DNA from: Thuidium tamariscinum
Lineage: Eukaryota; Streptophyta; Bryopsida; Hypnales; Thuidiaceae
Assembly (NCBI GenBank): GCA_947034885.2
Contig: OX344752.2
Location: 19,344,001 to 19,408,000, forward strand
Length of the DNA: 64,000 bases
Direction of reading: 5' to 3'
Shown: in pieces, positions 4,131-42,705 of the stretch
Numbering within the stretch: position 1 is the stretch's first letter
Layout: each line of letters starts with the position of its first letter
Position numbers and translations under genes: made by a program
Notes under the pieces: generated by a model
Databases searched by the model: none
What the model was told of the DNA's origin: nothing
What the model saw: only the letters and a program-made list of their open reading frames with translations

Positions 4131-4182
4131 TGTAGAAGCATATTAATTAATTTTAAGGTGGTCCACACCCCTGCCTAAATCT

Positions 4183-4275
4183 CGTCTGCGCCCTGACGAT
4201 CGCGTCCGCGCCCTGACGATCGCGTCCGCGCCCTAACGATCGTGTCCCCGCCCTGACAATCGCGTCCGCGCCCTG
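4183..4275. repeat. 20-bp tandem array (CGTCCGCGCCCTGACGATCG)
   Basis: About 4.7 copies with an exact 20-bp spacing (4183, 4201, 4221, 4241, 4261). The core GTCCGCGCCCT is the reverse complement of the AGGGCGCGGAC motif that fills 1-1860. Confidence 0.9.
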
Positions 4276-5532: not shown

Positions 5533-8500
5533 TCAAGGAGGTTCGTAGATGAATCCCTCGTAGGGTCCGAGCGGTTCCCAGGATGGGAGGCCATTAATCA
5601 TCTTGGCGAAGAAATTGTGTTTGCACCTTCTCTCGATGAAGTCTTCCTTCAGTTTCCTCTGGGAGTCAACTGATCTACGTTTGTTGCTGGTGATGTTGGT
5701 CCACTCCGTAAATCCGTAGTCTATCAACCCATTCCAGATATGGTTCCTTACTTTTTCCACCAGCCAGGTGACTCCATTGAAGGTGAGATCATTTCTCTGT
5801 ATCCACAGCGTCCACAGTACCGTGGTTCGAAGTTTAAGCTAGATGCGCTTGATGGGGTTAAATCGTCTGGGTAAGTTAATCCCTAAATGCCTAAGCTGCG
5901 TTTTTTGGCATTATAGATTTTTTGGGCAGCTCACTATGAATGGAGTTTTTGTTTTTTTTCTTCGAATTTTCACACAACATGTGTCCAAGGAGTAGCTTCA
6001 AGGCCCAACAATTTTCGTAACTTTTGACTACACCGTACCTACCATATCTACCCACAAACTAAAATTCCTCATCACTTTTGACTTGTGAATCCAAATGGAA
6101 TGATCCAAAGCTTCCCATGTCTATAAAAACCTAAAGAATCAATTTGAAATTTTACTTTTGAAAAAAAAGTTTTTTTAAAGAAGTTTTTTCAGCTGCCTGG
6201 GTTGCCCTCACTTCAAACAAAATAACATATCATGCCATAACTTCTTAACGGTGTAGTCAAAAGTTACGAAAATTGTTGGGCCTTGAAGCTACTCCTTGGA
6301 CACATGTTGTGTGAAAATTTCGAAGAAAAAAACCAAAAAATCCATTCATAGTGAGCTGCCCAAAAAATCTATAATGCCAAAAAACGCAGCTTAGGCATTT
6401 AGGGGTTAATTGAAAAAATCCCCTGCCTCCACAAGAGCGCTCGCCATGGCCCCTTAGTTGACCGTCCTTCAATTCGCGTGTTGAGAATGTGGACCGCCCA
6501 TTGCCAAGCACGGTAGGCCGCTGAGCATTCCCAGAAACGGTGTAAAACCGTCTCAGTCGAACGTCTGGGACAAACAAGGCAGCGCGTATCAATTTCTTCG
6601 TTTATGCGGCCTCTCCACTGGTTGACTGCCACCGCACGGTGCCAAATAAGCCACAATAATCCCGCTTCTTTCTTGGCACGTTCTGGTGGCCAGACTGATC
6701 TCTAGCGTAGGCGAAAATCTTCGGGGAGACAACCCCCCCATTTCCGAACAATAGGATTGGGGACGATGTGGCCTTTTTTAAGCAGGTTCCGGCCGAGGCT
6801 GGTGGTGAAGCTCATGAAGGGGGTCTTGCGCCCTCCGGGTCCCACTGTAGGAGATCGATCCTATCGTAGAAAAGGTGGACTGGGATTTTCCTTGGTCCTC
6901 TTCGAATTGTAATGACTTGAACTCTACGGAAGAATCCAGGTTGCGTTAGGTGTGACCTTGGTCGGAGGTCTGGGGCGTTGGCTTATAGAATGCCAGCTTT
7001 CTGAAGAACCGCGAAGCTTGGGTCGTTCCACTCGCTGGACCATTCCCCTTTGGGCGGGCCGATTCTGACGGGGGGTGCCTCTGGGGCCGTTAGCACTATT
7101 TTGGGGAGGATTTCCCCCTCATCCTCGAACCAGCCTACCCATTCCCCTTTAGTTGCTGGGGGGGGCTCATCGGGATGAGTGTCCCCCAGTTGCGTTGCAG
7201 GGTCTACGAGGCCGCTGCCCAGGCTCCGAATTCTTTGCGCTTTAGTCCATACTTGGTGCCAATTTCTTTGCTAGTGAGGAGTTTGCCCTCCTCGATGGCG
7301 TCTCGAATGAGTCTGAGTCCGCGTCTATGCAATTGCGTGGCTCTTGCCTTGGAGAATCCGGGCCCAATGAGGGGGGTGAATTGGGACCACCAAAGGACTC
7401 AAAGCCAAGCTCTTCTGGGACTTTGGGTGGGATTGGAAGGACTTGGCTCTGAATTTTCTTCCACGCTGAACCTATCCTGTTCCACACGGTCGACGCCTTG
7501 TTCGCTTGGCATTTTGGGACGAGGAAGAATTCCAAACTGTGGGACCATCTACCACCCTGGTACGGTTGGAAGCAACTTAGCTTGAATCTGAGGAGTGAGT
7601 GCAGGTTTGAGTTGCCCGGCTCGCACGCCTTGATGACCCATTTTACCATGAGCGTGGTTAATGCATCCGTCGGGTTGACCAGATTAATGCTGCCATTCTC
7701 CCTGTCCTGACAACACTGAATCTATGCCACTTTTGCTCTTGCTCTGTGATCTGATCCAGACCACATGTAATGTTGAATCATGGACGTGGTTTTTCTCACT
7801 CCACCTTGCGTGCCTCCCTAAATTGCCACGAAGTACATGATTGAGGCAACCAGAACGTAATTCGTAATGACTCCCCGCCCTGTAACGTTAAGCTGCGCAG
7901 TGCACCAATAATGAAGTTTGCGGGTGATTTGTTCTTGTAAAAATGAGTCAACAGAGTGGGTGTCCAGCTGCAGGCCAAACGGAGTCTCTAGTAGTTTGCC
8001 GACTTCATCGCTGCCGATCCACACCACTTGAAGTTGATCAATCCAAGCCGGCCTGTTTGGGTTGCTGGTATCCCGCCAGTAGCCTCTCGACTTCGACCAG
8101 TTGAGAATCAGCCCAGTGGCAAGGCCGAATCGGTTCAAGGTGGCCACCACATTTTGAACCGACAACTCTTCTCCTAGCAGGGTTAGAGAGGAGTCGTCTG
8201 CGAATTGGGCCGCAATTTGTTGGTTGGAGCTACCAGGGAGGTCGATCCCTCTAATCTCTCCTTTCGCCGCCCCTTCTTTCAACATTGCATTCAACACTTC
8301 TACAACTATAAGAAAGAGGTACGGCGCCAGGGGGCATCCCTGCTGCACTCCTCTTGCAATTAAAAAGGCAAGGGAGGGCGAGCCATTAATTTTGACTGCG
8401 GCTTGAGCGTCGCAAAATAACATCTACGTCATGCCAATAAATTCTTTTGGGAGGCCTAGAGTTGCCATGGCCTTGAACAAAAATTCCCAATCAACCGTAT

Positions 8501-9883
8501 CAAAGGCTTTAGAGAAGTCCAGCTTGAGGAAGATCAAGGGCTGTTTTGATCGTTCCGCCCATGTGATGGTTTCATGCGTGAACATAATATTGTCCAAAAT
8601 GAATCGTAACGGAAGAAATGCCGATTGGTTAGGGTCTATTACCTCCATGAGTACTGGTTGCAGACTCATCTGCAAGACCTTTGCGAACAGCTTGTACGAT
8701 GTGTTCAGTAAGGTAATCGGGCGCCAGTTTGAGAGCTGGTTGCGAGCCTCCCCTTTGTGCAGCAGCGTAATGAGGCCGCGATTGACTCCTCTCGGTAACT
8801 GTTTGGCTGCCACTACTTTGTTGATCATGGATAGCTAGTCTTCTTTTATGAGATCCCAATGGCGCTTGTAAAATTCGGTCACCACCCCATCCGGGCCGGG
8901 GCTTTCCCTCAGTCCAGCTCCTTTAGGGCCAAGTCGAGGTCCGCCATGGTGATTGGTTTCTTCAGTGCCCTTTTCATCTCTTGGGACAGTCTATCTGTGA
9001 TGCTGCCCAGCGCTTGCGTCATTGCAGCCTCCTTTTCCCTCGTCGGGGGGGGATTCTTGTACAAGTTACCATAAAAGTGGCTACATATGGCTTCGAGGCT
9101 TCCTTGGTCTGAATGCGGGGCTCCCACTTCGTCTAGGAGTTCAGTGAGGTGGGAGGCGCCGGTGTGGGCCTTGGCTGCCCTGAAGAAGTCTTTGTTGCAT
9201 GCATCCCCCGCCTTTATCCATTTAGCCCGACTCCTGACTCTTTTCCCTTCGGCTGCGTGTTTTTCGAAGGAGGAGAGTTCGGCTAGCATGTCCGCCACTG
9301 TTTTCTGAGCCTCGGCGTCACTAGGGCTTTGCTGCAGGGCTTCCTGTGCTTCAGCTAGGCGCTCCCGTAGTAGGGCTTCCGCTACTCTCCGCTCTGTGGG
9401 TTTTTTTTTGCAAAAGTGTTTGTAATATTTGACGATCCTTCAAAGTCTGCCTGTGAATTCAAGGTTGGGATGTTGCTGCCATATTCTGGCAAAGGCTCCT
9501 TTCACCTCTAGATCGTCAAGAAAGACCGTGCTCATTTTGTAGGAGGACTTTTGGGGGAGAGAGGCCTGGAGTAGCAGGGAGAATTTGACCGGCAAGTGGT
9601 CGGAGTGTCCGCAGCCCCTTTGTATCGTGTACTCCGTGATGGGAGAAGCGTCGGCTCCTCTCTATTTGAAAGAATAGATCCTATCAAGTCGAGCCATTAC
9701 GCAGTCGGCATCACTCCTTCTATTGTCCCATGTGTACTTGGTACGTGCTTCTTCTATAAAGTGATCGTCTACATCTAACGCATCTTTGAGTAATGAGATG
9801 ATGCGGGATTCACCTATTGTCATGGTAGTGCCATTGGAATTGGACTTGTCACTTGCTCGTTCTACAAAATTCCAATCACCTGC
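5533..9883 (-). pseudogene. LINE ORF2, C-terminal part: end of endonuclease, reverse transcriptase, zinc-binding domain
   Basis: From high to low coordinate: the end of the endonuclease with GDWNFVE (near 9870) and the ARLDRIYS signature (near 9665); a linker (about 9298-8909); SPGPDGVVTEFYKRHW near 8880; then the reverse transcriptase with LDFSKAFDTVDW (near 8500), GVQQGCPLAPYLF (near 8320) and the FADD active-site box (near 8190). VKWVIKACEPG follows near 7630. The zinc-binding zf-RVT-type segment lies at 6656-6399 (CLVC and HRFWEC pairs), and a tail ends at 5533. In-frame TAG codons lie at 8835-8837 and 8424-8426, and frame changes occur near 8910 and after 7818. The 5881-6404 MITE interrupts the region downstream of the zinc-binding domain. 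Confidence 0.9.
5881..6404. mobile_element. MITE with ~165-bp terminal inverted repeats inside the LINE
   Basis: 5881 onward (CCCTAAATGCCTAAGCTGCG) is repeated inverted and nearly perfectly up to 6404 (CGCAGCTTAGGCATTTAGGG). The arms run about 165 bp each around a central ~195-bp segment. The flanks are GTTAAT at 5875-5880 and at 6405-6410. This can be read as a 6-bp duplication, or as a TTAA duplication with one terminal mismatch. There is no coding capacity of its own. Confidence 0.9.
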
Positions 9884-11400: not shown

Positions 11401-11652
11401 TCCCCAAAACACACACACACTTCCCTCTCTCCACACACCAACTAAGCATCTTTTCCCTAATTTCCTCCCCATCATAAGTGAGGGGGTGAGGCACATCAGC
11501 CTATACCCCTACCAAGACCCCACCTAAGATTCCAATCACTTCCCCATTCACACTCTCTCTTATCACCAAACCCCAAGCTAATTTTTCTATCATCAAATCT
11601 TCATCTTACATTTATAATCACACATTGCGATTAAAAATAAAATACTCAAAAT

Positions 11653-11696
11653 CACTACAAAAAAGGAAGGGTAGAAATGACTGCGATCTATGACTG
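11653..11696 (+). repeat. CACTA left terminal inverted repeat
   Basis: Starts CACTACAAAAAAGG and runs to ATCTATGACTG. Its reverse complement is recognisable at 27896-27939, with small differences at positions 13-18 and a few others. Subterminal GACT/AGTC motifs begin immediately inside it. Confidence 0.9.
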
Positions 11697-12805
11697 TAAA
11701 CCAGTCATTTTTGCCAAAAATGACTCCGTCGCGACTAACTGCTCTGCAGTCATTGTGAACAAGTCATTTGAAGAATGACTGCATTTGTATAATCACCATC
11801 CGGTTGACCCTTGGATGAATTCAGGATGGGACAGTCCATGGGGCAGCAAACTTTTTTGGCAAATTTTGGGAAAATGACGGGCTGCTGCCCAAATTTTCAG
11901 ACTTTCTAGTGACGTGGCGGTCCCCGTCAGCAAATAGCGGAGTCATTTTCTAGTTGCATTTGAGTCAAATCTGAGTGGTCTTAGAAGTCCACATCAGCAC
12001 TTCTGGAAGTCATTTTCGTGTCATATTACAGTCATTGAGTTACTGGGGATTGACACGTGGCGGTTCAAGGCGCAGTCATTGTGAAGTTGTTCCTAAGTTG
12101 TGAGTGAGTTGCGTTTTATGACTGCGTTGTCATTTCCAAGTGATTCAGGTGTGACGGTTGTGTTGTTCGTACTGATTGTGGGACGCATTTTTAACGTGTT
12201 TTGTGGTCATTCTAGAGTGAAAGGCCGTCACTTCTAGAGTCGATTTTCAGTTAGAATTTACGGCTTCTATGGATTACAAAGTCGGGAATTAGTCTCTACA
12301 TTCACGAGTGCAAGTCAAGTACCAGATTCTGGTCCTACACTGCCTTCTTCTGGAGTAGAAAGCTATTACTTCCTTATGATTTCCTCCTAACTCATAAATA
12401 GAGGGGACTACCTGCACATGACTCCAACGCAACTATTGTACCAAGTACATTACAGAGGAACACAAGTAGATTTCAGTACCAATACGTGACTGAAATCACA
12501 CCTGCTATTCGCCCCATGCATTCTTAGAATACATGAAGATAATCAGAAAATTCTGATTGCCTATGCAAGACAGCGCTTCACACTTCAGGATCAAAAATCA
12601 CGACATAAATTCCAAAAAGTGCAAAACAAAAACAAACACTCATAGACAAGAAGGGTTAACACGTTGCTATTAACCATCAATATTTACAGTATCATGGTAC
12701 TCATGGGATAGTCACAAAAATGCTACAAGTCCCCAACTAGACCTTATGAAGAAAAAAAAGGCCGCTGCTGCCTGCTGGACCTTAGATGGTCATCTTGAGG
12801 TACTT

Positions 12806-13090
12806 CTAGTCCCATAGGGTGCACGTCCCTTTGACATCGTCAATTATCCTTTGATCATCTGCATCATTTGGAAACATGAGTGCCACTCCTGCGTTCAAAA
12901 TCTCCTTCACGTCCACCTTGAACCATGTCTCCGGTATTTCCTCGAAGTAGAACTTGTGCTTCCCAGGGATTCTGCTAATCTTCCCCACTGCCACTCTTTG
13001 CCTTGTGGCCCGTGGATTTATTAGGAAAACTTCGTCTCCGCATCGATATGCTTGTTGGTTGTCCACCATAGAAATCAAATTCACAGATGG
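12806..13090 (-). CDS. 3' exon of the CACTA TNPA-like gene (DUF8039-like C-terminal domain)
   Basis: A minus-strand exon opens after an acceptor (TTTCAG) at 13091-13092 in phase 0 and ends with TAG at 12806. Features are AYRCGDEVFLINPR, VAVGKI, then IPETWFKVDVKEIL and LMFPNDADDQ, and a final LWD. This order resembles the C-terminal small domain of plant En/Spm transposon proteins (DUF8039-type: a G-E-L/V start, VAxG, a xVxVxxVL strand and a terminal W). Orientation and position fit it as the last exon of the gene whose other exons lie at 13921-18144. The splice linking it to the previous exon is not resolved. Confidence 0.5.
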   Translation of the reverse strand, partial: PSVNLISMVDNQQAYRCGDEVFLINPRATRQRVAVGKISRIPGKHKFYFEEIPETWFKVDVKEILNAGVALMFPNDADDQRIIDDVKGTCTLWD

Positions 13091-13454
13091 CTGAAATGTA
13101 TAATAGGAATCTGAAAATGATTTCTCACAATCTACCTACTTCCCCCTCACTTCAAAGTTACTGAATCATAACACATATTTAACTTTAAAATGACTTGGAA
13201 GCGCATTGTCACGGAGGTTCGACTTCTTCGTAACTCTGTGGACTATTGTATCTCAAGTACCTCGAATAGACTTTACAGTACATGGAACTCTATGCACAGA
13301 GAGAGGGAAGGATATTCAAAGCACACAAAGATCTACACAAGCGCCACGCTTGTGCAACCAAGATCGGCTCCTCTAATTCAGTTACAAACTAGCCATGCAC
13401 ACAATGATATAATAAGACAAAGTTAGTGCTTGGAGGGTGGTCAACCTCAACCAA

Positions 13455-13643
13455 CTAAGTTGGTTGATTAAGGTTAAAACCTAACTGCTTGAATGGTTTA
13501 GGCTCCCTGTAGTGAGGGACTTCACAATTCTGTCTTTGCTGCGCTGACGTCCACTGAAATGGACTTCCGACTACCCTATTCAAGGCAGACACGACTTGGC
13601 AACCCGATTCAAAACTCTCGAATGACTTGTAGGTCTCTACCAA
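13455..13643 (-). other. Short open segment between TNPA-like exons, not recognised
   Basis: A 62-codon open frame lies on the same strand as the TNPA-like gene, between its phosphatase-like and DUF8039-like parts. It has no recognisable motif and could be an exon or intron sequence. Confidence 0.15.
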
Positions 13644-13920
13644 ATGACTGAATCGGTGAGAACTTCCCCAACAACTCCCTCGTCACTGGAAGAATACTAC
13701 GATGGTACTTTACATGCACTTGCTCTTGACTTGACGTCTTCACCAACACTACTAAACAACTTCATCAAACCGTAATTGCAACTAAGCATCGGTTTAGGGT
13801 CACAAAATCTTCTTCGTGGATTGTGCGGAAGGGCGTGGGGCAGTTGTCGATGCAGGCTTTGTCCTTGCCTCCCGCTTCTGTGAGTTCTGTCCCTTCACCT
13901 ACACATGCCGACACACATTA

Positions 13921-15722
13921 TCAGATATGTCGATCAAGGGAAGGTGAGGGGACACCATCATTTGTGCAACCATGTGGTTTGCTAGTCCCCTCACCTTCCA
14001 CAAGGTCCAAAAACTCATATGCATGTCCAGTTCGGCGTCGCTGCAGCATTTGTGACATGGACTCGTTGACAACTTGTGGGAATTTGGATCGAAAACTCCC
14101 GACATCTGGGCATGAGTGCCAAGCCTCCAAGCACGGCCACAAGTACCGTTTCAAGTACTCTTTATCATCTGCCAATGTGCAAATCCACTTCATATAGAAA
14201 GGGGTACTAATGATGACATTAGCATCGGGATTGCATTCCACCCTACCTGGCTTACTATCTATGATAATTGTATTTGCGGCACAAAAATGAGGCCACAATG
14301 CATACACTGACTCTAATTGTTTCCCCCAGTCATTTGCCCACCCATGTGCACCGTCTTCCTCCTCGGACTGTTTCCCAGACCACGCAAATAATGGAGTTCC
14401 TTTCACCCCCTTCACCCCCCCAGCATGGTTGCTAGTACATCGTCCATATGCGACACACTGTCGCTGCCCCAAAAGGCGACCCAGAATTTCTCAAAACATC
14501 GGATAAGGAAGGGTTTGAGCCATGGACGAAAAACTACTCTCCGAAATTTGGTGTTTGTAGTACTACGGATTCGTGGATTCAGATTACCCTCGAAGAGCAT
14601 ACTACAGTCTAGTAATGTACCGTGTACATTAAGAACAAGCAATTTTGACTGGGAGCACTCATGTAATGGAAGCATGACAGTACTAGCCCCGACAGGTCTC
14701 ACCTGTCTAGACGTGTGTGTGCCAACGCCGGGCGGGGAAAGTACCTTGGCCGGCGACTTGGGGGGTTTCTTGGACTTCTTCGATGTTGGTGAAGGTGGGA
14801 CCGCTGTTGCTTCCACTGACTTAGAGCTCGGGCGACTTGCCCCTACAACTGCATCTGGAGATGCATCGCGAGTCTTCTCCTGTGGTTTAGCTACCTCACC
14901 TTCTTCCTTTTGCGGATGGCTGCCGGCGTCATCGCTGCTTGTCGGTGATGGGCCTCCACTATGAGGCGTGAGCTGGCGCCCTTCTTCTCCAGCAAATCCT
15001 TCACCAGCCTCCTCATCTTCGCTCGTCATAGTCTCTTCATCTCCGGCTGGTGAAGGTTCCGCTACATCTATTTCCACTACTATACAGTCTTCCCGTGGCT
15101 CGGGAATTGCTCTTCTGCCTTGTGGCTCGGGTAGGTCTGGCACTTCCACAATGGTTAGTGTGGTTGGCGCACTCAAAGGCTCTGTGACACTCTGCGTTTT
15201 GGACTCCTTCACCTCTTTAGTGCCGACCTTGGGGATGACCTGGTCAGACACTTGGCATTGTTCGCTGATGTGAAGAGAATCCACTTCCTTACTAGCCGGG
15301 AGGGTGATTTGAGAGTCAGAATCCGAGAGAGTAATATCTGATGCCTTAGCTGTGACCCGAACACCTTCTTTCTTCTTCGCTAGTCTAGCATAGCCTCTCT
15401 TGTCTTTCCCCAATTGACCATCATTTTCCGTTGTAGCTTTCAGGGAAGGCACTCTATGCTTCGACTGAGGCAGAACCTCTACAGCTTCAGTGTCAGATAG
15501 ACGAATGTCACCTTGGTTCTCCAAGGCCGATCGGGTGGTGGAGGGGGAGCCTTCGTCTGCAGGGGTTCCCTTGCCCACAAAATTGCGGACCATGGAGCGC
15601 AATTTGTCTATTGCTTGAGATTGCATTGTGTGGTTCTGGAGAAATTGATCAAACTTGACGTCCACACCCTTCTTCCACAATTCCATTGACTCCCAGCGAG
15701 CCAAGTCCCCTGCCACCCCCAT
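13921..15722 (-). CDS. CACTA TNPA-like gene, long exon: disordered linker plus FCP1/NIF-like (HAD) pseudo-phosphatase domain
   Basis: The exon opens at 15722 after an acceptor (GGGAATAG) in phase 0, matching the donor at 16681. Residues 1-35 (WKKGVDVKFDQFLQNHT) continue the TNPA-like domain. Residues about 50-340 are acidic and Ser/Pro-rich with a basic KKSKKPPKSPAKV patch. From about residue 360 a domain like plant FCP1/NIF phosphatases appears: KLLVLNVHGTLLD, VVFRPWLKPFLIRCFEKF, VAFWGS, then after a frame change TPLFAWSGKQS, ANTIIIDSKP and a C-terminal LKRYLWPCLEAW. The family's catalytic motif is DxDG or, in plant relatives, DLNG. Here it is NVHG, so both acidic positions are gone and activity is unlikely. 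A run of seven G on the coding strand (near 14415) marks a one-base frame shift between 15722-14412 and 14472-13921. The fusion to a TNPA-like protein could be capture of a host gene by the transposon. Confidence 0.65.
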
Positions 15723-16680
15723 CTATTCCCACACACGGTTTGGAAGTCGACCACAGTCATCACTCAGTTAGCCACTAGTCACCTCAAATGACTCGACACA
15801 AATGTGACTCATGCACCACTTAGTGGCCACTACCTACAAATAGAAGTCATACAAAATGACAAGGCTTGTGCACGAAAGACTATGAACTCCTATGAAATGA
15901 GAACTTCGTCAGCAGTCAAATCCTTGGTAAGCCCGGCCGTGCTTCAGATCCCTATTTCCTAACCATTCAGAGGATCATGAAATCGTTGAGATACTTACAG
16001 GGTTTTAGACACATCACTGCCTATTGACTTTGATCATAATCTGAGGACCACATCTGAGGTGGGATGGCCCGCGGCCTTTTCAAGACGGATAATACGACTG
16101 ACAGTTCACTTTGGACGCAGAAATGACTTCAAAGTGACTTATGCGCTACTCACCCACAACTGAAGTGCAACTACAAAATAACTACACTGCGATTGGGTCT
16201 GACCCTTACTCGGACCCTAAACCCAAACAGTCACATAGACATAGCCCTCCAAAACAGCAATGCAGTACAAATTTCATTCTTTGTATCCACACTTACTATG
16301 GAAATGTCATTGTCAGAAGACTCTTAACCACAATCTACTTCAATTAGCACTGACATTCCATACACAACATTGCAGCCTGCACCTGAAGACTCTCACGCCA
16401 TGACTAGACAAAACTACTTTCAAAGGGGAACACAAAGGGCAAAACTGTAACTCACATTACTTCCACCTCCGTGTATCGGACTTTGTAGCCTACCCGCATC
16501 TTCAGATATGATGGAGAGGCTTGTTCTACTTCCCATTCTCTAGCAAGGGAACCACAACAAGCAGTTAGTTTGGCACAAGAAATTAGGGGCCCTATACTTC
16601 AACTGGTTCACTTGTATTCAGAATTCGAAAAGTAAATATGAAATGGATATTGAAGACACCATCACAAAGAGGACTCTTAC

Positions 16681-18144
16681 CAATGATGCATCCCTGCCTG
16701 CCTTGCCTTTCCTCCCGACTAATGTCAAGTTCTTCACGCTTGAGCGAGCCAGAGCCATCTTTTGGGCCTTCACCTTCTGGGCATTTGTGTTCCAATAAAG
16801 CTTAAGGCGATCCCACTCTGGTTTGTCTATGTGAAGAGGAGGACTATCGATGCCTTTCAAATAACGGGATTTGAGGCGTGACCTTTCAGACTTCATATAT
16901 TTCTGAACAGCCATCTTGAATCCGACCATGCTCAGTGGAGTGCCTAGATATTCAAACTCGTTGTCTAAGGCAGCCCTTAGTTTCTTCACCGTATGTGCGT
17001 CGTGCTGAGACCACTCCACAATACTCATATCGAGGCACTTTGGGACTAAATCGCGCAAGGCTTCATCCCATGCATTCTTCCCCTCGCAAGTAGCATCCAC
17101 CTCCCCACCTTCTAGCACGAACACTCGATTGGGCTTCACTCCGGCTGTCACCCTTTAACGACTAGCGAGATCATACTCGCTTTTCCTCTTCTGTCGGCCT
17201 AAGCGGTCGTCGTTGAGTTCGGCTACATCATCTTCGGATTGGCCCACCGGGCACAGAGATTGGGCAGGCCACGCATTTGGAAGGATTGCGGGCGGACCTG
17301 CAGACCAAGGATTACCTGATGGGGCCTGGCTCGGGACATAATGGCCTGGGACCCAAGACCAATTGGGTTGCCCGTAGGAATTTCCATCTACGGGCGAAGG
17401 TGGTGGCAGTGCAGCCTTTGTTGGTGATGCCGAGATTGTGTTCTTCTTTCTCCTTATCCTCCGATCTACCAAAGCTGGCTCGTCTTGCAGCTGCAACTCC
17501 TCTTCCGACGAGTCATATGTTGTCGGCTCCGCCACTGCCAATACATTAGTGCACACGCGGAAGGATGCATCTTCTCGGGGTTACTTTAATTGACAAAAAG
17601 TATTCGGGGAATAGAATTAGATTCTCTACCAATTTCATCTTAGTACTTCATGTTTCCATAAAAGAAATTCAGTTCAAGCAAGGACATACAGAAACATTGG
17701 GCTACACCATGCACGAGCATGAACCCTAATCCCTGACCCAAGTGCGAGGGCGGGGTCGGTTGAGTTACCTGCGGCTTTAGCCTCGTGCTTGGATTGCCGC
17801 TCAATATGGGTACAAGCAATGGCGAGGTGCAGCATACCTGTGGCAATGGCCTCCTCGTCCGACTTTGTAGCCTCCGATGATGAGTCGCGCGCTGAGCTCA
17901 TGGCGCGGTCCCGTACTCCTCGCACACGAATTTCCTGTGAGTTTGCGCCCTCGCACCCTCGAAGGCTCAGCCACCTTTCACTTCTCCGTGGAGCGACGTC
18001 GTCCTCTGGACGCGAATTCACAATCACCTTTGCGGCCTTCCGCTTTGTTGGGGGTAAGCCCCTGCGCCGCCAACACGCAAATGCACTCAACGCTTCAATC
18101 CGAGCGCACACATATACGATGGAAGAGAGACAACAGTCTAACAC
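16681..18144 (-). pseudogene. CACTA TNPA-like gene, N-terminal exons (plant transposase_24 / Ptta-En-Spm family)
   Basis: Exon 1 ends at 17769 with donor GTAACT, and exon 2 begins at 17534 after GGCAG. The junction restores ...EAKAAVAEPTTYDSSEEE in frame. Exon 2 ends at 16681 with donor GTAAGA in phase 0. Exon 1 has an NLS-like stretch (PPTKRKAAKV). Its start is uncertain: there is an ATG at 17901, but the frame stays open upstream to 18144. Exon 2 holds the conserved domain: VEWSQHDAHTVKKLRAAL, SRLKSRYLK, then KPEWDRLKLYWNT and KMALARSSVKNLTLVG, the pattern of plant transposase_24 proteins, which in En/Spm bind subterminal repeats. A TAA at 17155-17157 interrupts exon 2 between ASR and RVTAG, so this copy is probably inactive. 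Confidence 0.7.
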
Positions 18145-20653
18145 AAATACGCTGACACAAGGGCGCTAACAAACCGGCGATGGCTTCACAAACAATCTAA
18201 CACTGGCTAGGGTTTGGTGGAGGAAGATGACTGACTACCCCGCATCCAACACACACCTGAGCGCTCCCACGTGGCCCCCATTGTAATCATAACTCCTTTC
18301 TCGTATTGCACTTCTATGTAACTAGTACATGACTTAGAAGTGACTTCAGAGTCACTCAAATAGAGTCGTGTAGGAGTCACGAGATGTGAAAAATGACTTC
18401 TACGTGTCTTGTGAATGACAAAGCTATAACTTATAGCAAAAGGGCAGCTCGGCACCAATACTACCGAGGCCAAGAAAACCCTACCGAGCGCACCACTTGC
18501 TTCCATTGGGAAGCGTGAACTATTCTCTGACGACAACAACGGTCAAGCACTACAAGTCTTGGAAGTCCTGAGCACCTACCAAGACCTCTTAATCGCACAG
18601 AAGAAAAGGTCGGCTTCCAAACCACTGGCCAACACTTTCAAAACTTCCATGCGCAATTATGCCATGCCTGCTACACAAACGGCATGACTCAACAGAAACT
18701 TCAGCATTCCTTGGCGAGAACATGGTGAGCACTTACAACTCCGCTATCGCCGCCAGTTGCGGAGCGACGGCCTTCTACAACTCCGCTACGTTACGGTCGC
18801 GCATGAGTTCGTATGCCGATTTCTCCGGCGGCGGACTCTCCTCCCTCGACTCCATCGTCCACAAATCGCTTCCTCTTGTGGTATGTCTCTAGTTCACAAC
18901 AGAAGCTCAACTTGTGTGCAATTGTGACAGAAATGCTAGCGCCAATCACGTGTCTCTCGCTATTGTGCAAGAGAAGGGAAGGCCAGGTAGCAATCGGGAA
19001 GTTGGGACTCAGTGATGCGCTTGAGGTAGTTCACTTTGGACGTGGGTGTGTACTTGAAGAATGTAGGCAGGAGAACTTGAACTAAGGGAGACGATGAAGT
19101 CATTTTCCGTGATGAGTTAGGTGGATAATTGGCGGCTCCCAATTAATTTCTAGATTTTGCAATTACTAATTGCCCTCTTGCCTATTAGACCACGTGTAGT
19201 AATGCTGATCTTCTAGCGATTTGTATTTGAGTGCAATTGTCTAAACTGAAATTATTGACCCTTCAATGATGTATTGGGGACTTGCTACATTAAACCTTCA
19301 CGGACATGAACTAGGGTCAATAGGAAACTACTTGTGACGGTCTTCCAGTGCAGGGTCCCACTGAAGGGCATTATTGAATTCTCAGAGGTAGTCTTCGCTT
19401 CCTAGTCACAGTGAAGTGCAAAGTTGGGTTATGTGACTGAAACCTCACTAGTGGAGTCATAGACTAGTAGCGTGAACTACAGCCCCCTTCACCAATTCCT
19501 TCTGAAAAAGCTCACAGTCATTGGGTAGTCCCAATGGAGTTACACCTTCCAAAACTGTGAGAGGTGTCTTTAGTTTCTGATTCATGAATTTTGGCAGGAC
19601 TATGGAGATTGGCTACACAATCAGTACTTAGAAGGGGACAAACCTAGTGAGGCCGCACTCACAATTCGCGGAGAGAATTTTCATGAAGAGGTCAGATTGC
19701 GTAGTTGCTCATGTTGTCAATAACTTCTAGGAAACATCCCCATGCAATAGAAGTGCCGCTGAAGTCGTTTTAAAGTAGTGAACCCGATTAAGTCATTCTA
19801 TATGACTATACTGTGACTTAGAAATGACATCTCCCTTCAATTTTATATTACCATAATAAAGCTCCTATTCAATTTTAGGGGGTAAGCTCCTATTCAATTT
19901 TACGTTACCATAATAAAGCATGGAAGTGGGATTCTCATTCTTATCCCCATTTTTTTTTAGGGGACTAAATAATCTGGCATTTCCTAATGCGTTAAGCATT
20001 CCATTCCAAGATTTTTTGGGCTACTCTTCTCATCTCAAGAAGAGTGTCACCTATAAACTATCCCTTCCAATTTCTTTTAATTTTGCATGGGTTGGTTTCA
20101 AAAAACTACACCTTCATTGGTCAATGCCAAACATAGTCTTCAGAGTATGACTGCAAATCTAGAAGCAAGCGGACCCTGCGAGTCTAACAGTGCCCACGTA
20201 GTCATTGTAAATTACTTGAAAGTAATTAGTTATATTGAATGACTATTTCTTTACTAGTTTATGACAAGCTTCATTAGTCATGAAGTCGACACTTGGATGA
20301 ATCATGAGGGTTGTCCAGATTTATATACGGACAAAATTTATTCAGTATTAGAATTGTGAGTTCATGGTCCTGAATCCTTGATCCATCCCTTTCTGATGTT
20401 AAGCATATACATCTTATAGAAGTTCTGTTAATGAATACAGGTCTTTCAACACGTGAAGGTGTTGGGCCCATTTCGAGAAAGCGTCGACTCCATCGAACTT
20501 GAAGTTCCACCTCATGTCAACCCTTGCTGCTTGGAGTCCTAACTAGTGAGTGCCATCAGGTATTACAGTCATATGCTCACCAAACCGCATCTTACTAAGT
20601 GTGATTAGCATTGCCGTGTAACACCTACCTAGCAGTTCATGTAGTAGTACAGA
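18145..20653. other. Central CACTA spacer between divergent genes
   Basis: It contains many GACT/AGTCAT motifs (about 18300-18420 and 19080-20300), so it resembles the subterminal regions. Near 18722-18880 a more GC-rich open stretch (MVSTYNSAIAASCG..., ending at a GTATGT donor-like site) may be an exon of captured host DNA; I do not recognise it. Nothing else is supported. Confidence 0.4.
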
Positions 20654-21083
20654 ATGCCCAAGCGAAGAGTTCTAAGAGCTGCACCTCTCTTTTCGAGGAA
20701 GAGACATAGAATGGTAACCCCTGATTCTAAGGAAGATGTACGCATACCTGACCGACCGTGTCCAGTAAGGACACGTACTTCAAGCTCCAGCACTCCAAGT
20801 TCAGGATCCAAGCTGAATTTAGCATTAGAAAATGGAGATGGTCCTCACGGAAGTGGCACCCACTGTGAAATGTTCAGAGGACGTGCACCCAAACCGCATC
20901 CCATCTCCTCTTATGAATAGCGAGCTCGAACACCGTTTTGAAAGTTGGGTAGCCTTGGCCCTGGGTTGTACCTCTGTGCTAGAATCAGCAAGTGACCCTC
21001 ATCCCAATGCATTGCTAAACAATCCCATTGTGAGTAGTATGTCCGATACTAGTCAGCTTGAGGGGGGGCCTTTTCAAGAGTAG
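20654..21083 (+). pseudogene. Possible broken ORF with basic N-terminus, inside CACTA
   Basis: The plus-strand frame from ATG 20654 starts with a basic stretch (MPKRRVLRAAP..FSRKRHR) and is Ser-rich. Near 20832 the reading continues in a different frame to a stop at 21083 (ending SQLEGGPFQE). I recognise no domain. It lies directly upstream of the TNP2-type gene and could be its 5' exon or an unrelated accessory ORF. Confidence 0.25.
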
Positions 21084-21614
21084 TCCAGCTTGACACCCGA
21101 AGATGTGAACAAAATCCCCATGAATGAAAGAGGGTGACTTTCTGTATACCAAGTTTGCTGCGTATTTCATGGCAATAGGTTCATGAAAGACTCTATAGTT
21201 CAATCAGTGCTTTGTTTCTCGTATGTGCATTTCTTTTTTCTTTTTTCTTCAAACATGATGGAATGTTTTCTTCAAATGTGTGTCTTACAATCTTTTCAAG
21301 TAGGGTCGTCACTTCCATCACCCATGTTCTGTACAAACTGTCTCACTGCTATAGACATATTTTAGTCATTCACGTGTTCCCATTTTTTACTTTGCAGCAA
21401 CTCGTCAATGTTGGAAGACATTTCTTAGTCATTCATGAGTATTGGAAGTCATGTGTAAGTTATTTACGAGCACGGCACTTGTGGAATTTCACTTTCCCTA
21501 TGAAGAAGATACTCTGTATTCGGTGAGGTCTGTGCTTATGCAAAATCCCTCGCATTAGTAACCCTCTTCCAGAACCTTGCATCACGGGGCTCCACATTAG
21601 TACCCAAGAAAACA

Positions 21615-24600
21615 ATGATACCCGCAAGACTTCCCTTATCTGATAGTCGAAGGCAGCAACTACGAGATGATCGCCTCTGGGTGAGGGAGCTGCAAAGGGC
21701 TAGGGAGTACAATGTGAAGAAATTGCATTGTCCATGTACAAGCTGCAGGGGTCGTAAGAGACTGTTAATACGTAACGTACGGGATCACCTACATCGCAAC
21801 GGCCGAGATCCTCAATCACGACTATGGAGAGGCCCCGGCGGAAGAGACTCCTCGGACGAAGAGTGGGAGGAACAATTTTGGGGACCGATACGAGAAGATC
21901 CGAAAGAGTTAGAGGCATTGGATGCCACGGTTGATACTCATGGCATGGTCATGCAAGCATTGGAACCAGTAGAAGTTCCAGAAAATTCGGCAAAGAAAAT
22001 TCAAGCGGAAGTGCGGGATGCTTTTGACATAGTAGACTCAGTCCATGCAGAATCTATGGAAGAGAGTAACGGTGGCATTGCAGAGGATCAAGAAGGTCGT
22101 CATGAGCAAGACCCTGAAGTCACAAGCCCAGAAGGTGCCGACGGTGATTGCAACTTCGATGCTAGGGTGTTAGAAGAGTGCTTGGAGCCTTTGTACGACA
22201 GGTCTGCTTCCAGTAAGCTTGCAGCAACGGTACTATTAATGAACTTGTGCACCGTGCATTCTGTAAGCAACCATTGTGCAAATAAACTTTTCAGTTTATT
22301 GCATTCACATCTACTGCCAAAGACTAATAATTTGCCAAGAACATACCATGCAGCAAAGTCCCTTACAAGCAAGTTGGGGTTGACATACAAAGCCATACAC
22401 GCTTGTGAGCGTGGATGTGTACTTTTCCGTGGACCCCATGAGAATGCCCTCTGTTGCCCTCACTGTGGTGGTCGCAGATATCGGGATGAAGATCGACGTT
22501 GCTTTCCAGTGAAGGTTCTACGACACTTCCCCATCATTCCGAGACTACAACGGATGTTCATGAGTCCAAGTATCTCGAAGCTCATGGTTTGGCATGCCGA
22601 GAATCGTAGCAACAAAGAAGGAGGGGATGGGTTGGTGAGGCATCCATGTGACTTGAAAGCCTAGCAGCACTTCGAAGAAAATGTGGACCCTTCTTTCGCA
22701 AGTGATCCTCGAAATGTCCACTTTGCCTTGGCAGCTGACGGAGTGAACCCGTACAAGCTGAATCGAACATCATGGTCAACTTGGCCGGTGGTGCTTCTGA
22801 ACTACAATTTACCACCATGGTTGAGCACCAAGAAGTTTTTCATGATGTTGGCCTTGTTGATTCCTGGGAGGGAGTCTGTTACAAGTGATGTCTTTGATGT
22901 GTATTTGGAGCCTCTTTTAGAGGAGTTGTTGGAGTTGTGGGATGGAGTACCTGTGCATGATGTTACCAAAGATGTAGGTATGAAGGCTTTCCAATTGAAG
23001 GGCATGTTGTTGTGGACTATCCACGACTTTCCTGGTTATGGCACTGTTGGAGGATTCTCTCATCAAGGTTATGCAACTTGTCCATGGTGTGGCATGGATT
23101 TAGGCGTTGAGCATTCCATGGAGCTTGGCAAGTGCACTTATGGTGGTACTCGTCGTTGGCTCCCTGAAGGGCATCCATACAGGTCTGAGGAAATGAAGGA
23201 GCACTTCAATGGCTGTATTGAAAACCGCCCTAAACCAAGAGAGGTAACAGTGGAGGAGCAAATTCAGCACGCACTAGAGTACGTGGCATGGAAAGCAGCT
23301 GGAAACAGAGATGGTGCTCCGGGGAACCCCTCCAAAATTTATGGTTTGAAGCGGCTCAGTAGTCTTTTCAGATTGCCATATTGGAAGGTGAGGACATCAG
23401 GCTGATCGCTTTTTTACGTTGTCAAGTGAAATGAGTTCTACATAACTGGCAGACAACTTCGTACTCAGAAAGAAGTCACTTTCATGTCATACAGGAGTTG
23501 CAGTAGGTATTTAGTGAAATTAAACGACTATTACATGACTAGTACGTGACCGAGCCCTAAGTGGATTCAGGATACCTGAACCACACGTCTGGTTAGGACG
23601 TTGTCGAGTGAAATGAGTTCTAGGTAACTCCTACATGACTCAATTGTAATGAGTCACTAACTTAGGAGTCATATATGCGTGGGGAAGTTGTCAATTAGTT
23701 CTGTAATATGACTAAGTTTTGACTCGTATATTTCCGGGACCTCTATTAATTGAAGTAGTGAAAATGCAATTCATGGGTCACCTTACAGAGGCGTTTTTTG
23801 TCCTTTGAAGTTTTTTCGGGTATTTAACCTCAATGGACATGCTATATATGAAATATCTCAAGTAAGGGGTTGAATCCCATGAATTGGAGGTACCCTAAGT
23901 TACAGAATTTAGTGTGGAACAAATCTGATTTGTGGGAGGGGTTTTCAATTCATTCCCCATTTTTTTGAACACGTATTTTAGATTCATTCCCCAAATTTTA
24001 TAAGAAGGATTTTCAATTCATTCCCCATTTTTTTTAATAGCAATTTAGGTACGCGTTCGTGGTCCCTTGAAGAGAATGTCGGTATACATGTAGCCTCATG
24101 GATACGCTATGAATCCAATATCTGTAGTAAAGCGTTGAATGCATTGAATTGCACGTACCCTAAGTTACAGAAGTTCAGATGCAAACAATATAATTTGAAG
24201 GAGGCATTTTTTTTTCCATCCCCATTTTTTTTAACAACACTTTAGAGAGGAGTTTGTGGTCCCTTCAAGCGAATTTTCATAATTGGTATGTAGCCTCATG
24301 GATATGCTGTGTATCAGAATTCAGTAGTAAGGCATTGAATACATTCAGTAGGCGCTTCCGAGGGGTAAAAAAATTAGTGTGGAAAAAATCTCTTCTATGG
24401 GAGGGATTTTCAATTCATTCCCCATTTTTTTTGTCCGCTGCTTTTGATAGGTGTTAATGGTCCCTAGAAGTCTTTTTTGGTGCTATTCCACAACATGGAT
24501 GTGGAACATGTCAAATTATTGTAGTAAGGACTTCAAGTTAGAGAATTATAGTGGAGTGGGTCGTGAATTCACTGTGACTGCGTTTAGTCATGCTGATGTT

Positions 24601-26729
24601 GTCAAGGAAAATGAGTTCTACGTAACTCTAAATTCACTATCGAGTCAAAAATTTGTCACGTGAAAGTCATATGGAAGTTGTAGTTGTCAATTATTGGAAA
24701 CTTACAACTCCTGAATGACTCAAATGTGACAGTGAGGTACTGAAATTGCTACTCATGTATTCACTTGCAGTTGCTTCTGATTCGGCACATCTTGGACGTC
24801 ATGCATTGCGAACTTAATTTGTCAAAGAACTTCCTCAAAACCATTAGCGGGAAGAAAAACTCTGTCAAAGTGAGACGAGATTTACAGAGGCGGAATGTGA
24901 GGCCGCACTTGTGGTTGACTCCACATCCCCGCAAGGTAGGGAAGATGGTGAAGCCACGTGCATCCTATGTGATGTCCGAATCTGAGTGGGAGAAGTTCGT
25001 GAAGTGCATTGAGTCGTTGAAGACACCCAATGGATACTCGTCAGACCTTGGGAAGTGTCTCCGGAAGAAGAACTTTGGGGGGTTGAAGTCCCACAATTAC
25101 CATGTTTTAATGCAACAACTCATGCCACTAGCTCTTCGTGGTCTCATGCAAAGAGGACCTCGTATGGCTATCATGAGAATGTGTAGGGTATATCGACGTT
25201 TATGCATGAAGGTTTACGATCCGGCTGACTTTCCTTCGCTCGAAGCAGATGTGGCGGAAAGCATGGCGTTGTTGGAGATTGAATTTCCACCCTCCTTTTT
25301 CGACATAATGACGCACCTCCCTTACCATCTTGCAAAGGAGTTGGACTTGTGTGGACCAATCAGTGCAAGGTGGATGTATCCGGTGGAACGGTACATGAAA
25401 GTCTTGAAGAGCCATGTTCGAAACATGGCACAACCTGAGGCTTGCATGGCTGAGGGATACTTGAAAGAAGAGTGCATAGTATTCATAACGGAGTACCTCC
25501 ATAGATTTGAGGGAACTGAAAGGCGTGTGTGGGATGAAGACGAAGAATACGGAGACGCTGAAGAGGTTTTGCAAGGGGCAGGGCGGGCATACATGATGAG
25601 TCCTGAGTTGAGAGATGTAGCACATCACTATGTGCTTTCTAATGCCTCCAGCATGCAAGAGTTGTTCATGTACGTTAGCAAACAACTTCTGTAGCTGAGT
25701 ACCAAGTGTAAAGTAGTGCGGAATTTGTATTGCCACAGTTACCCTGAATCTCATGTTCAGTGACTGCATAGAAGTAAGGCAGAAGATGTGCTTCAGTCAT
25801 TCTCAAGTCGTCTATCGCTTAGTCCCTTGAGAATGACTTCGTGGGCACTGAGTGAAGTCATTCTGGAGTCATATATGCCTGCTGCTGACTTGATCAAAAC
25901 CTCACGGCCACCCCGCGAGTGTTGAATTCTTGAGGGATATAGTATTGTGGTTACCTGGCCTTGCATGCTAATCCTTATGTTTCTCACTTGGTTGTGAAGG
26001 ACCTGGAAGATTGAATCCGAAGAGAATTCATCAACTCCGTCATTATCAGAGTGGATAGCGCGCACAATGGGTGAGTCTGACTTGGATTTCTGGAACACAA
26101 AAGACATGGACCGGTTCCTACTTAGCAAGAGGCCATCACAGAGAGCCACCCGATACTCCCGGGTCACTGCCTTCGGTAACCACTTTCGAGTTGAAGATGA
26201 GAGTACCACCCACTTGTTGAGTTACAATAGTGGGGTAGCCTCTGTTTTCCAACAGCCGTCGTAGGAGCTCGATGAATCACTTGTAAATTATGTAGGAGTA
26301 CTCAAGGATGTCCTTGACCTCGATTACGGTGCATTGAGTACAAAGGTGATTCTGATGCGTTGTGAGTGGGTGAAACCCACCGACAATCGAGGGAACCCCA
26401 CGTACACGAAGGATGAATTTGGGTTCCTTGTTGTGAACTTTCGCCACAAAATGCCTCGTTTGGCTGAGCCTTTCATTTTCCCAAGCCAGGCGACCCAGGT
26501 ATTTTTCTTTGATGTTGCAGATCGACCTGCTTGGAAAGTTGTGTTAGGAAATCCAGCTCGAGCAAGACGTGAAGTCGTGGACACATCAGACGCTTTCATC
26601 AGCACTAGAAATGAGAGCACCGGCCTTCTAGCTCCTCGTACGTTGCCAATTCCAACGGCAGCTGTCAATCTACTAGGTGCCATCGAGTTGACCGAGGAAG
26701 AGAACATGTTAGCCCAAGAAGGGTATTAG
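21615..26729 (+). pseudogene. TNP2-type CACTA transposase gene (Transposase_21, DUF4218, DUF4216 parts)
   Basis: The ATG at 21615 opens a Transpos_assoc-like segment (HCPCTSCRGRKRL, HLHRNGRDP). The core transposase follows: FASDPRNVHFALAADGVNP, STWPVVLLNYNLPPWL, MLALLIPG, LLWTIHDFPGYG and CPWCGMD. The exon ends at 23387 (...LPYWK); an intron with GT/AG borders runs 23388-24770, and exon 2 opens LLLIRHILDVMHCE in phase. DUF4218 follows with LPYHLAKELDLCGP and RWMYPVERYMKVLKSHVRN, ending near 25690. A further exon (about 26060-26729) has TAFGNHFRVEDE, YVGVLKDVLDLDYG and PSQATQVFFFDV, as in DUF4216. In-frame TAG codons at 22662-22664 (where relatives have W in AW.HF) and 26262-26264 disable this copy. 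TNP2 proteins catalyse CACTA excision and integration. Confidence 0.9.
23790..24560 (+). repeat. Degenerate ~200-bp tandem repeat within the TNP2 intron
   Basis: Units carry, in order, GTCCCTTGAAG, CCTCATGGATATGCT, a GTAGTAAGGCATTGAAT-like phrase, TACCCTAAGTTACAGAA, GTGGAACAAATCTG and TTTTCAATTCATTCCCCATT. The last phrase occurs near 23947, 24010 and 24408, with a shorter variant near 24215. The intron is 1383 bp, mostly this repeat plus GACT/AGTC motifs. Confidence 0.7.
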
Positions 26730-27895
26730 AGTCGGCGCAGCAGAATACAAATTCAACCTTCAATGTATCGCCATACTGTTCGATCCCACTCTGGCTTGCT
26801 GAAGTCATACAGTAGTTGTGTCAAGTCATTTATAAGTGCCTCTACAGATGAGTTGCAGTCGCGTGGTGTCACTATTTCACTGTCTTGAAGCAATGACGTG
26901 CACTGACTGAACTGTCTTTGATTTTTAGTATGTCTAGAGAGAAGAAGCGTTTCATGGTAACCCATCTTCTATTCACCGGGCTTGTACTTCATGTTTCCAA
27001 AATGTTTTGGCAATTTCTATGTGATTTTGTTGATTGCTCCTCATTCACTTGTGACGTGAGACATACCGTATTGCTTCTGGTTCGTTGGTTGCATTTCTTC
27101 TTTCTTCACCCAACATATTGGACGATGGAGTAAAGTATCTAAACAAGTATGACAGTGAATTCCCCTCACATAGGAAGCCAGTATGGTTCCTAATGGTGAA
27201 CTTGTTAATGCTATTCTAGCACTTGAGTTTTGTACGAATAGGCCATCAGTGGCAACTCTCACATCTGAGTCGCTCATTGTTGAGTTACCCTGAAACCTTA
27301 CTGTAGTTACGTACCCCACCTTGCTGTAGATAATTGTAGCATTGCCCTACAAGCTGATATGAAGTCACCTTGAAGTGATGGAGAAGTACATATTAGTCAC
27401 CTCTGAGTAGTCCTCAAGTGACTGCCTACCACGTCAGCCTAAAACATCGCACAAATTTGGAGTGTAAATAATGAAGCCAAATACAGTATAATGAGCCTGA
27501 AGTCGTATTCAAGTCGAGAAGACTAACATCGTAGTTGCATCGCACTACTGCCACAATGACTGGAAGTCCTGAAAATTTCAACCCTGCCCGTCTCCATACC
27601 AAAAAGGGTACCCTGCTCCCTACAGTCATTTTTTAGTCTTAAAGTAGTTCCCCCTAGTCGCAATTACCGCCACAGAAGTAGTCGTTAATGACTAGGCCCT
27701 CCACGGGGGACCTCCGACTGTCCAGTCCATTTCCTCGAGTGAATTTGAACAGAAAGCTGCAGATGAAAGTCGCCGTTACAACTACCTACATCCGCGAGTG
27801 ACGTTGGTGACTGCAGAATGACTTCGCTACCCTGGCTCCCACGGGCGTGGTGCAATTATAGAATTCTTAGTCATTTTTCAGTGAAATCGGACAGC
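26730..27895. other. CACTA right subterminal region
   Basis: No gene is supported. Many copies of GACT/AGTCATT motifs in both orientations become denser toward 27939, as expected for transposase-binding subterminal repeats. Confidence 0.6.
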
Positions 27896-27939
27896 CAGTC
27901 ATAGATTGTAGTCATTTTTACCCCTGATTTTTTGTAGTG
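27896..27939 (-). repeat. CACTA right terminal inverted repeat
   Basis: Ends ...CCCCTGATTTTTTGTAGTG. Its reverse complement matches the left end at 11653-11696. Confidence 0.9.
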
Positions 27940-42502: not shown

Positions 42503-42705
42503 CACTACAAGAGAAAGGGGTATTTTAAGTAGTGTCCTAGACATCATGTCTTTTAAGTAATGTCTTTTAAGTAAGGTTTTAAGTAAAATTTTACTAAAAA
42601 GACAGTCTTTTCAGTAAAATTTTACTTAAAACATTACTTAAAAGACATTACTTAAAAGACGTGATGTCTAGGACACTACTTAAAACACCCCTTTCTCTTG
42701 TAGTG
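42503..42705. mobile_element. CACTA-type MITE, 203-bp near-perfect palindrome
   Basis: Ends CACTACAAGAGAAAGGGG and its inverted match CCCCTTTCTCTTGTAGTG. The TTG triplet flanks both sides (42500-42502, 42706-42708), a 3-bp duplication as CACTA elements make. The arms consist of TTTTAAGTA-type repeats and pair along nearly the whole length. Confidence 0.93.

Follow-up and report, generated by a model that had tools for sequence, protein, structure and literature searches.

The window, i.e. the whole 64-kb stretch of DNA analysed here (C4:19344001-19408000), contains a CACTA element that spans positions 11653-27939 and carries a transposase gene on the plus strand and, divergent from it, a second gene on the minus strand (~12.8-17.6 kb). 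The features discussed below are the following.

11653..11696 (approximately 11652-11696), no strand: left terminal inverted repeat, starting with CACTACAAAAAA...; 45-nt arms, 87% complementary
12806..13048, minus: last exon of the second gene, which we presume to be "TNP1-like"; 130 own-genome matches; acceptor lost in the window
13809..13898, minus: tail exon, basic (VKGQ..KREARTK...), phase 0, from the alignment; donor AT, not GT, in the window
13899..13994, minus: intron 3' of the NIF exon, with donor GAAG|GTGAG in phase 1, CTRAY-like branch point and YAG acceptor, from the 31-row alignment
13939..13952, minus: 3' arm of a hairpin, from fold and alignment
13986..13999, minus: 5' arm of this hairpin, covering the NIF-exon donor, from fold and alignment
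13995..15722, minus: NIF exon (short coiled region, disordered linker, NIF domain), placed by acceptor alignment; frame broken at 14415-14421
14101..14645, minus: NIF/FCP1-like pseudophosphatase domain with motif I NVHG (PF03031 match, residues 11-191 of the read-through)
16456..16539, minus: 28-residue exon, phase 0 at both ends, its length shared by the window, C2 and C3
16681..17580, minus: TNPA-like exon, weakly Transposase_24-like (PF03004 E 0.13 in the C3 relative), from family matches in the own genome; stop at 17155-17157
21504..26729, plus: transposase gene with Transposase-associated domain, tnp2, DUF4218 and DUF4216
27896..27939 (approximately 27896-27940), no strand: right terminal inverted repeat, from an inverted-repeat search

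The 45-nt inverted repeats begin with TCACTAC, as CACTA-type terminal repeats do, and in the C6 copy, which is 97.7-97.8% identical to the window copy over two stretches of ~12.7 kb in total, the left repeat marks the precise limit of homology. Of the five elements read, the window, C6, and C2 copies showed both ends, and C3 and C1 showed one end each, the other not being found. The C6 and C2 copies are flanked by perfect 3-bp target-site duplications (GTG/GTG and TTG/TTG, respectively), and the AAT/ACT pair of the window copy agrees at two of three bases. The transposase gene matches the tnp2 family characteristic of CACTA elements (PF02992, E 1.1e-56), together with DUF4218 (E 4.6e-34) and DUF4216 (E 2.2e-13) in the Pfam scan, and the Transposase-associated domain at E 2e-4, under its cut-off. 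Repeat-like units of the form ATGACTTC occur 10 times in the window, for 0.41 expected. The original prediction, made from the DNA letters, had placed an FCP1/NIF domain inside a CACTA element, and the inverted repeats and the tnp2 match bear out this placement of the NIF exon.

The C6 copy has an additional 4.1-kb stretch within the second gene (C6:19595971-19600104, L032/L033), opposite window position ~16405 and missing from the window copy. Elsewhere in the window, a ~200-bp fold-back at 42503-42705 with CACTAC-like ends on both strands resembles a small non-autonomous element, and a broken reverse transcriptase on the minus strand at 7818-9439 (RVT_1 3e-18 and 1.7e-9 on two pieces) is probably a LINE remnant. 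Units of 13-33 bp resembling GGCGCGGAC are repeated in tandem at 31-1514 and 4179-4275, and two similar arrays of 21-43-bp AT-rich units, ~770 bp apart and likely a duplication, at 45515-45744 and 46285-46535. Likely host genes encode a protein kinase (33337-34227, plus), an expansin (48636-49265, plus), and a nucleotide-diphospho-sugar transferase (55838-56452, minus). The expansin and the kinase, together with the transposase domains, point to a plant.

Exon layout of the second gene and the hairpin over the NIF-exon donor

Exon junctions were taken from alignments of genomic copies, mainly a 31-row alignment comprising the window and the 30 best-scoring loci fetched out of the at least 116 described below. 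A GTAAG donor, or one close to it, directly follows the TNPA-like exon in phase 0. Its name, given in the original prediction, is supported by its position and by one sub-threshold Pfam match in C3, but not by the window itself: Transposase_24 (PF03004) was matched neither in the window nor in C2, its matches in C3, at E 0.13 and 0.28, were under the cut-off, and it stayed under the cut-off when the spliced TNPA-like exons were scanned with Pfam. At the other end of the gene, the last exon is present in 5/5 elements, with conservation beginning at residue ~30 in the three that are more distant. No Pfam family was matched by the last exon of the window copy, and a match of PF10108 to that of C3 (E 0.003, under the cut-off) was taken as chance.

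The NIF exon starts at a YAG|AT acceptor in all 15 loci in which the anchor could be located (16 rows out of the 31, one locus being present twice), and it ends at the donor GAAG|GTGAG, whose GT is present in 30/31 rows and is lacking in L005. Past this donor the protein reading is poorly conserved, with early stops in L009 and L028 and 10-base gaps in L021 and L025, and we therefore place an intron there. The tail exon that follows is open at phase 0 in 29/31 rows, and its diversity at codon positions 1-3 rises from 0.108 to 0.212 and 0.302 over the first 30 columns (0.263, 0.305, and 0.373 overall), which gives a modest signal of coding at phase 0, the only phase scored. Because the phase-1 NIF donor does not fit the phase-0 tail exon, a single protein made of NIF domain, tail, and last exon appears unlikely; a reading of the NIF exon straight on into the last exon was likewise set aside on phase. 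Judged from these phases, the NIF exon looks like an alternative terminal exon.

The donor of the NIF exon lies in a 14-bp hairpin, in which GGAAGGTGAGGGGA pairs with TCCCCTCACCTTCC, 33 bases further on. Over the 31 rows, 421 of 433 cells are paired, whereas shifting the arms by 1-3 columns leaves 50-62% paired. All but one of the 12 unpaired cells belong to outer pairs, and the nine core pairs are formed in 278/279 cells. Diversity is 0.007 and 0.021 in the two arms, 0.28-0.33 in the loop and spacers, and 0.13 at the branch point. Three copies gave folding z-scores of -4.5, -3.5, and -2.3, the third being equalled by 4 of 200 shuffles. With both arms nearly invariant, true covariation is scarce; the substitutions found in the core keep the pairing through G-U (C1, L027), and L005 loses one pair together with the donor. 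The hairpin may control splicing at the NIF donor.

All other mapped junctions of the second gene are in phase 0 and would skip the NIF exon cleanly, which also fits a different arrangement: the NIF exon could be an independent gene that starts at an ATG and ends at a stop of its own, lies within an intron of the TNPA-like gene, and never contributes to the TNPA-like protein. An ATG does stand at the 5' edge of the exon in 14/15 loci, and the intact reading frames of L002, L005, L014, and L018 reach a stop soon after a PSPS motif. Nevertheless, L018 has ATT instead of ATG at this edge, the edge is preceded by YAG in 15/15 loci, and on visual comparison part of the NIF-less element L051 looks similar to the coiled N-terminal region of the exon, which suggests that the coiled region is older than the NIF domain. 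We consider a nested gene unlikely, at perhaps one chance in four; its product would still be a selected transposon protein. We prefer to read the NIF exon as the alternative end of the TNPA-like gene.

The original prediction had also put the NIF domain in phase after the TNPA-like domain. By the phase-0 junctions of the alignments this holds for the relatives, but not for the window copy, which is broken. In addition to the altered tail-exon donor and last-exon acceptor listed above, its TNPA-like exon contains an in-frame stop (17155-17157), and in its NIF domain LLVLNVHG...VAFWGS and LFAWSG...IIIDSKP are in different frames, the break being at a run of G (14415-14421). Four other loci (C9:90961, C11:10711186, C1:656228, C3:41056272) are split near this site; the one that was read, the relative L029, is broken at the equivalent run by a different lesion. 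Such lesions fit an unstable G run and sequencing trouble there equally well. Programmed frameshifting at this run was set aside, since L002, L003, and L005 each read through in a single open frame; open-frame relatives also include those at C6:19.59-19.60 Mb and C3:41.95-41.96 Mb.

The NIF domain, its nearest branch, and its catalytic residues

The FCP1/NIF motifs named in the original prediction are present at 13921-15722 on the minus strand. Taken separately, the two frames of the window copy match the NIF profile under the curated cut-off (frame A, 14412-15722, profile positions 1-72, E 0.014; frame B, 13921-14490, positions 107-159, E 0.027). Read through the break, the translated exon matches PF03031 over positions 1-159 with E 4e-8 and 33.6 bits, above the cut-off of 21.8. 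Intact relatives match without any read-through (L014, 2.3e-10, 40.8 bits; L005, 1.9e-8, 34.6 bits), as do all ten scanned members of the family alignment A1, with a best E of 3.5e-13. These profile matches indicate that the NIF domain within the CACTA second gene is real.

The nearest branch of the NIF/FCP1 family appears to be the UBLCP1-type HAD phosphatases. Their model TIGR02245 is the best NCBIfam model and matches 10/10 members of A1, albeit weakly (best E 1.8e-5), and UBLCP1 is the nearest solved structure by sequence (PDB 3shq, E 1.8e-4). The domain differs from UBLCP1 itself in the loss of the catalytic Asp residues described below and in a TIGR02245 score of 19.6 bits, far under the equivalog cut-off of 192.25; moreover, the Pfam scan of the window exons gave no ubiquitin-like domain. 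This relationship raises the possibility that, if the domain serves for binding, its partner is proteasome- or ubiquitin-linked, as in a UBLCP1-like system, rather than the polymerase CTD, and that the module protects or degrades transposon proteins. The UBLCP1 type of the nearest profiles speaks for such a partner, whereas the modest similarity (only 1e-4 to 1e-5) and the negative scan of the window exons for a ubiquitin-like domain speak against it, and we regard it as a doubtful but serious option.

In active NIF/FCP1 phosphatases, motif I holds the nucleophile Asp and the acid/base Asp, and motif IV holds an Asp pair (the HAD motif labels I-IV are those which we take to apply to the NIF residues). 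We read these motifs in the same 31 rows, of which 28 contain the full NIF domain, the split ones being the window, its own locus L013, and L029. The nucleophile Asp of motif I is replaced by Asn in 28/28 loci, as N-V-H in 27 and N-V-Y in one, and motif I of the C1 element is NIHG. The first Asp of motif IV is retained in 27 loci and is Tyr in L003, and the second one is replaced in all 28, by Ser in 27 and by Asn in L006. In most rows, the Thr/Ser of motif II is Gly, by our reading of the alignment. Both Asp residues of motif I and an intact Asp pair in motif IV, which characterize an active enzyme, are consequently not found in this NIF domain. Motif I is almost constant across these 28 loci, whose NIF domains are 66-96% identical to that of the window. 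As the original prediction had proposed from NVHG in a single copy, the domain is, judged by its residues, catalytically dead.

That it remains an enzyme with altered chemistry is very unlikely: the motif III-like Lys (K116) and the first Asp of motif IV (D137) are invariant in the ten A1 rows, but neither the nucleophile nor the acid/base Asp is left, motif II by our reading has Gly in place of Thr/Ser in most rows, and no HAD phosphatase is known to us to function once the nucleophile Asp is gone.

Distribution in the genome, origin, and selection

The own genome (363 Mb, 19 contigs, with C1-C11 containing nearly all of the sequence) was searched with each part of the element. The NIF protein gave 132 matches among the best 150 of 156 candidates, corresponding to at least 116 loci after merging; the TNPA-like exon gave 122 matches among the best 150 of 233, the last exon 130 with all 135 candidates scored, and tnp2 150 among the best 150 of 617, so that counts of co-occurrence with tnp2 are lower bounds. 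The order TNPA-NIF, which the original prediction had asked to be sought in other family members, recurs at 101/116 NIF loci, each of which has a same-strand TNPA-like exon no more than 12 kb upstream (median distance 2.0 kb). The last exon follows within 6 kb (median 0.9 kb) at 106 of the 116 loci found; both flanking exons are present at 97 and neither at 6. By hand count, 40 NIF loci have at least 220 matched residues and no stop.

At least 83 of the 116 loci have, in addition to the TNPA-like exon upstream, a divergent tnp2 gene within 35 kb, compared to a mean of 0.61 and a maximum of 3 in a control with shifted places. Among the best 150 of 617 tnp2 candidates, a NIF domain lies within 35 kb of 79 of the 96 genes with at least 75% tnp2 identity, 4 of the 10 with 60-75%, and 0 of the 44 with 40-52% (42 of these 44 were checked for NIF by protein search only); 23 of the 106 close hits in this set are without NIF in that range. 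The same layout is common to 5/5 elements read, although the NIF-exon protein itself has diverged, its identity to that of C6 being 94-97% in the window, 61% in C2, 65% in C3 (NIF part), and 41% in C1.

Related elements without the NIF domain also exist in this genome. In L050, the profiles of the TNPA-like exon and of the last exon match at E 3.7e-55 and 1.5e-28, respectively, and in L051 at 3.8e-36 and 2.6e-14; L052 and L053, 10-kb stretches beside distant tnp2 genes, have the TNPA-like exon with E 6e-5 and 6e-4. Profile searches of L050-L053 with filters off gave no NIF match, the best E of all NIF profiles being 0.051, which is not significant. Sixteen TNPA-like loci are without NIF within 12 kb. 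Five of them, at 41-54% identity, retain the last exon downstream and are NIF-less relatives; two (C4:29596550, 76%; C11:7669318, 66%) are full-length TNPA-like exons of the NIF family, whose NIF domain is lost or further away; and the remaining nine match weakly or in part (28-40%, or 71% along a portion of the exon). Since NIF-less related elements keep the exons that flank it, the NIF domain was most simply gained inside the gene, and its description as captured in the original prediction is supported. Within this one genome, from which the NIF-CACTA family is known here, the NIF-less relatives thus most simply polarize a single gain within the second gene.

A scan of IMG/VR with the family alignment gave 59 pattern matches, none of which was confirmed, and the only NIF relative from there (L001), which matched over 19 residues on the strand opposite a longer reading frame, was taken as chance. 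The own genome contains other multi-copy NIF-coding sequences (L044 6409-6981, L045 6281-6859, L046 3286-3852, L047 6446-7006, L048 6724-7206; among the best 150 of 466 candidates), with motif I DLNG or DMNG and the Asp pair retained. They match no CACTA parts and look like a second, unrelated NIF-bearing repeat. L044-L047 have further reading frames in common, none with a Pfam family above the cut-off, and L048 shares only NIF; some of these frames presumably carry ParB-like NGQH and methyltransferase-like motifs, noted by eye. A hAT-type transposase remnant lies near the NIF gene of L044 (8719-9999, minus; DUF659 2.4e-24, Dimer_Tnp_hAT 2e-8).

Selection was estimated as Nei-Gojobori dN/dS on 11 sequences without stops (55 pairs), pairs with dS outside 0.02-1.5 being dropped. 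The median is 0.17 for the NIF domain (43 usable pairs, 42 of them below 0.5) and 0.55 for the linker (37 usable pairs, 14 below 0.5), with the pairwise values non-independent and dS near saturation in many pairs. Among the deep pairs formed by the window, C2, C3, and C1, dN/dS is 0.14-0.18 for NIF (5 of 6 pairs gave a value), 0.06-0.10 for tnp2 (5 pairs), 0.05-0.12 for DUF4218 (5), 0.06 and 0.10 for the TNPA-like exon (2, the others being saturated), 0.15-0.31 for the last exon (6), and 0.24-0.40 for the linker (6, aligned parts only). The recent pair of window and C6 has higher ratios (NIF 0.92, linker 1.13, tnp2 0.46), as would fit copies that decay once inserted; such recent pairs cannot serve as proof by themselves, because NIF values scatter from 0.14 to 0.87 in the five closest pairs of the 11-sequence set. 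Taken together, the ratios indicate that the NIF domain is under purifying selection between diverged copies.

With a median dN/dS of 0.17 and at least 116 loci, the suggestion in the original prediction that the domain might simply be a passenger is not supported. That a functionless fragment of a host gene was caught by chance is highly improbable and was rejected: CACTA elements do carry gene fragments (PMC8978399, in the part available) and many NIF copies, including that of the window, are broken, but the low ratios of the deep pairs, the number of loci and of long stop-free copies, the near constancy of motif I, and the co-occurrence with the flanking exons and tnp2 all stand against it.

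Proposed function and comparison with known systems

We consider it likely, with a probability of roughly 0.7, that a CACTA lineage captured a NIF/FCP1 domain, lost its catalysis, and kept it as a binding module, with two products made from the second gene. The domain would have been inserted into the TNPA-like gene after the linker region and ahead of the C-terminal exons, and would then have lost the nucleophile and the acid/base Asp, giving NVHG or NIHG. Lost catalysis and conserved fold residues fit a binding module, which the original prediction had offered as one option and which is favoured by elimination: the dead domain would still fold as NIF and may dock a DNA-binding protein encoded by the element on a host nuclear phosphoprotein. 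Our first guess for this ligand is the CTD of RNA polymerase II, and our second a proteasome-linked partner of the UBLCP1 kind. From the exon phases, splicing past the NIF exon would give a TNPA-like product with the tail and last exons at its C terminus, and including the exon would give a NIF product that terminates within it; the choice between the two may be set by the donor hairpin.

In the HAD/NIF fold, substrates are trapped by Asp-to-Asn mutants, of which the NVHG module would be a natural counterpart. More speculatively, and with a low probability, the transposon might have turned a host phosphatase fold into a substrate-trapping reader of host nuclear phosphoproteins (CTD or proteasome partners), with the donor hairpin acting as the product switch by concealing the splice donor of the NIF exon.

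Plant proteins with a transposon-related domain and a link to a phosphatase have some resemblance to this case. MAIL1 and MAIN have been linked in the literature to a phosphatase of the PP7-type fold; this fold differs from NIF, and their transposon-derived domain differs from that of the NIF-CACTA. Both are plant proteins with a transposon-related domain and act in gene silencing (PMC5418596, in the part available).

The closest parallels are other CACTA elements. In the part available of PMC8978399, second genes are described that gained domains, Transposase_24 and Peptidase_C48 being named and others mentioned in passing; those elements share with the present one tnp2, DUF4218, DUF4216, and a second gene able to gain domains. 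Here, in contrast, the gained domain is NIF/FCP1-like, the genes are divergent, and both gain and purifying selection could be traced within one genome. TNPA of En/Spm binds subterminal repeats, and alternative products have been described (PMC2613891, in the part available). As in our element, where splicing is taken from alignments, it is a second spliced protein beside the transposase; the present gene differs in having no significant Transposase_24 match and in carrying a NIF domain. The soybean CACTA element Tgm-Express carries captured gene fragments (PMC1947982, in the part available), whereas here one domain has apparently become a regular, selected part of a lineage. No description of a NIF-bearing CACTA element was found in the open-access literature searched. 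The superfamily is known and its parts are ordinary; a selected, catalytically dead NIF domain among them, which we did not find described, makes their sum unusual.

In this family, a transposon appears to have gained a phosphatase domain and to have kept it under selection after the death of the enzyme, with at least 116 loci available for study. The question of whether transposons use captured domains or merely carry them thereby becomes testable. Were the polymerase CTD to prove the ligand, the element would hold a direct handle on host transcription.
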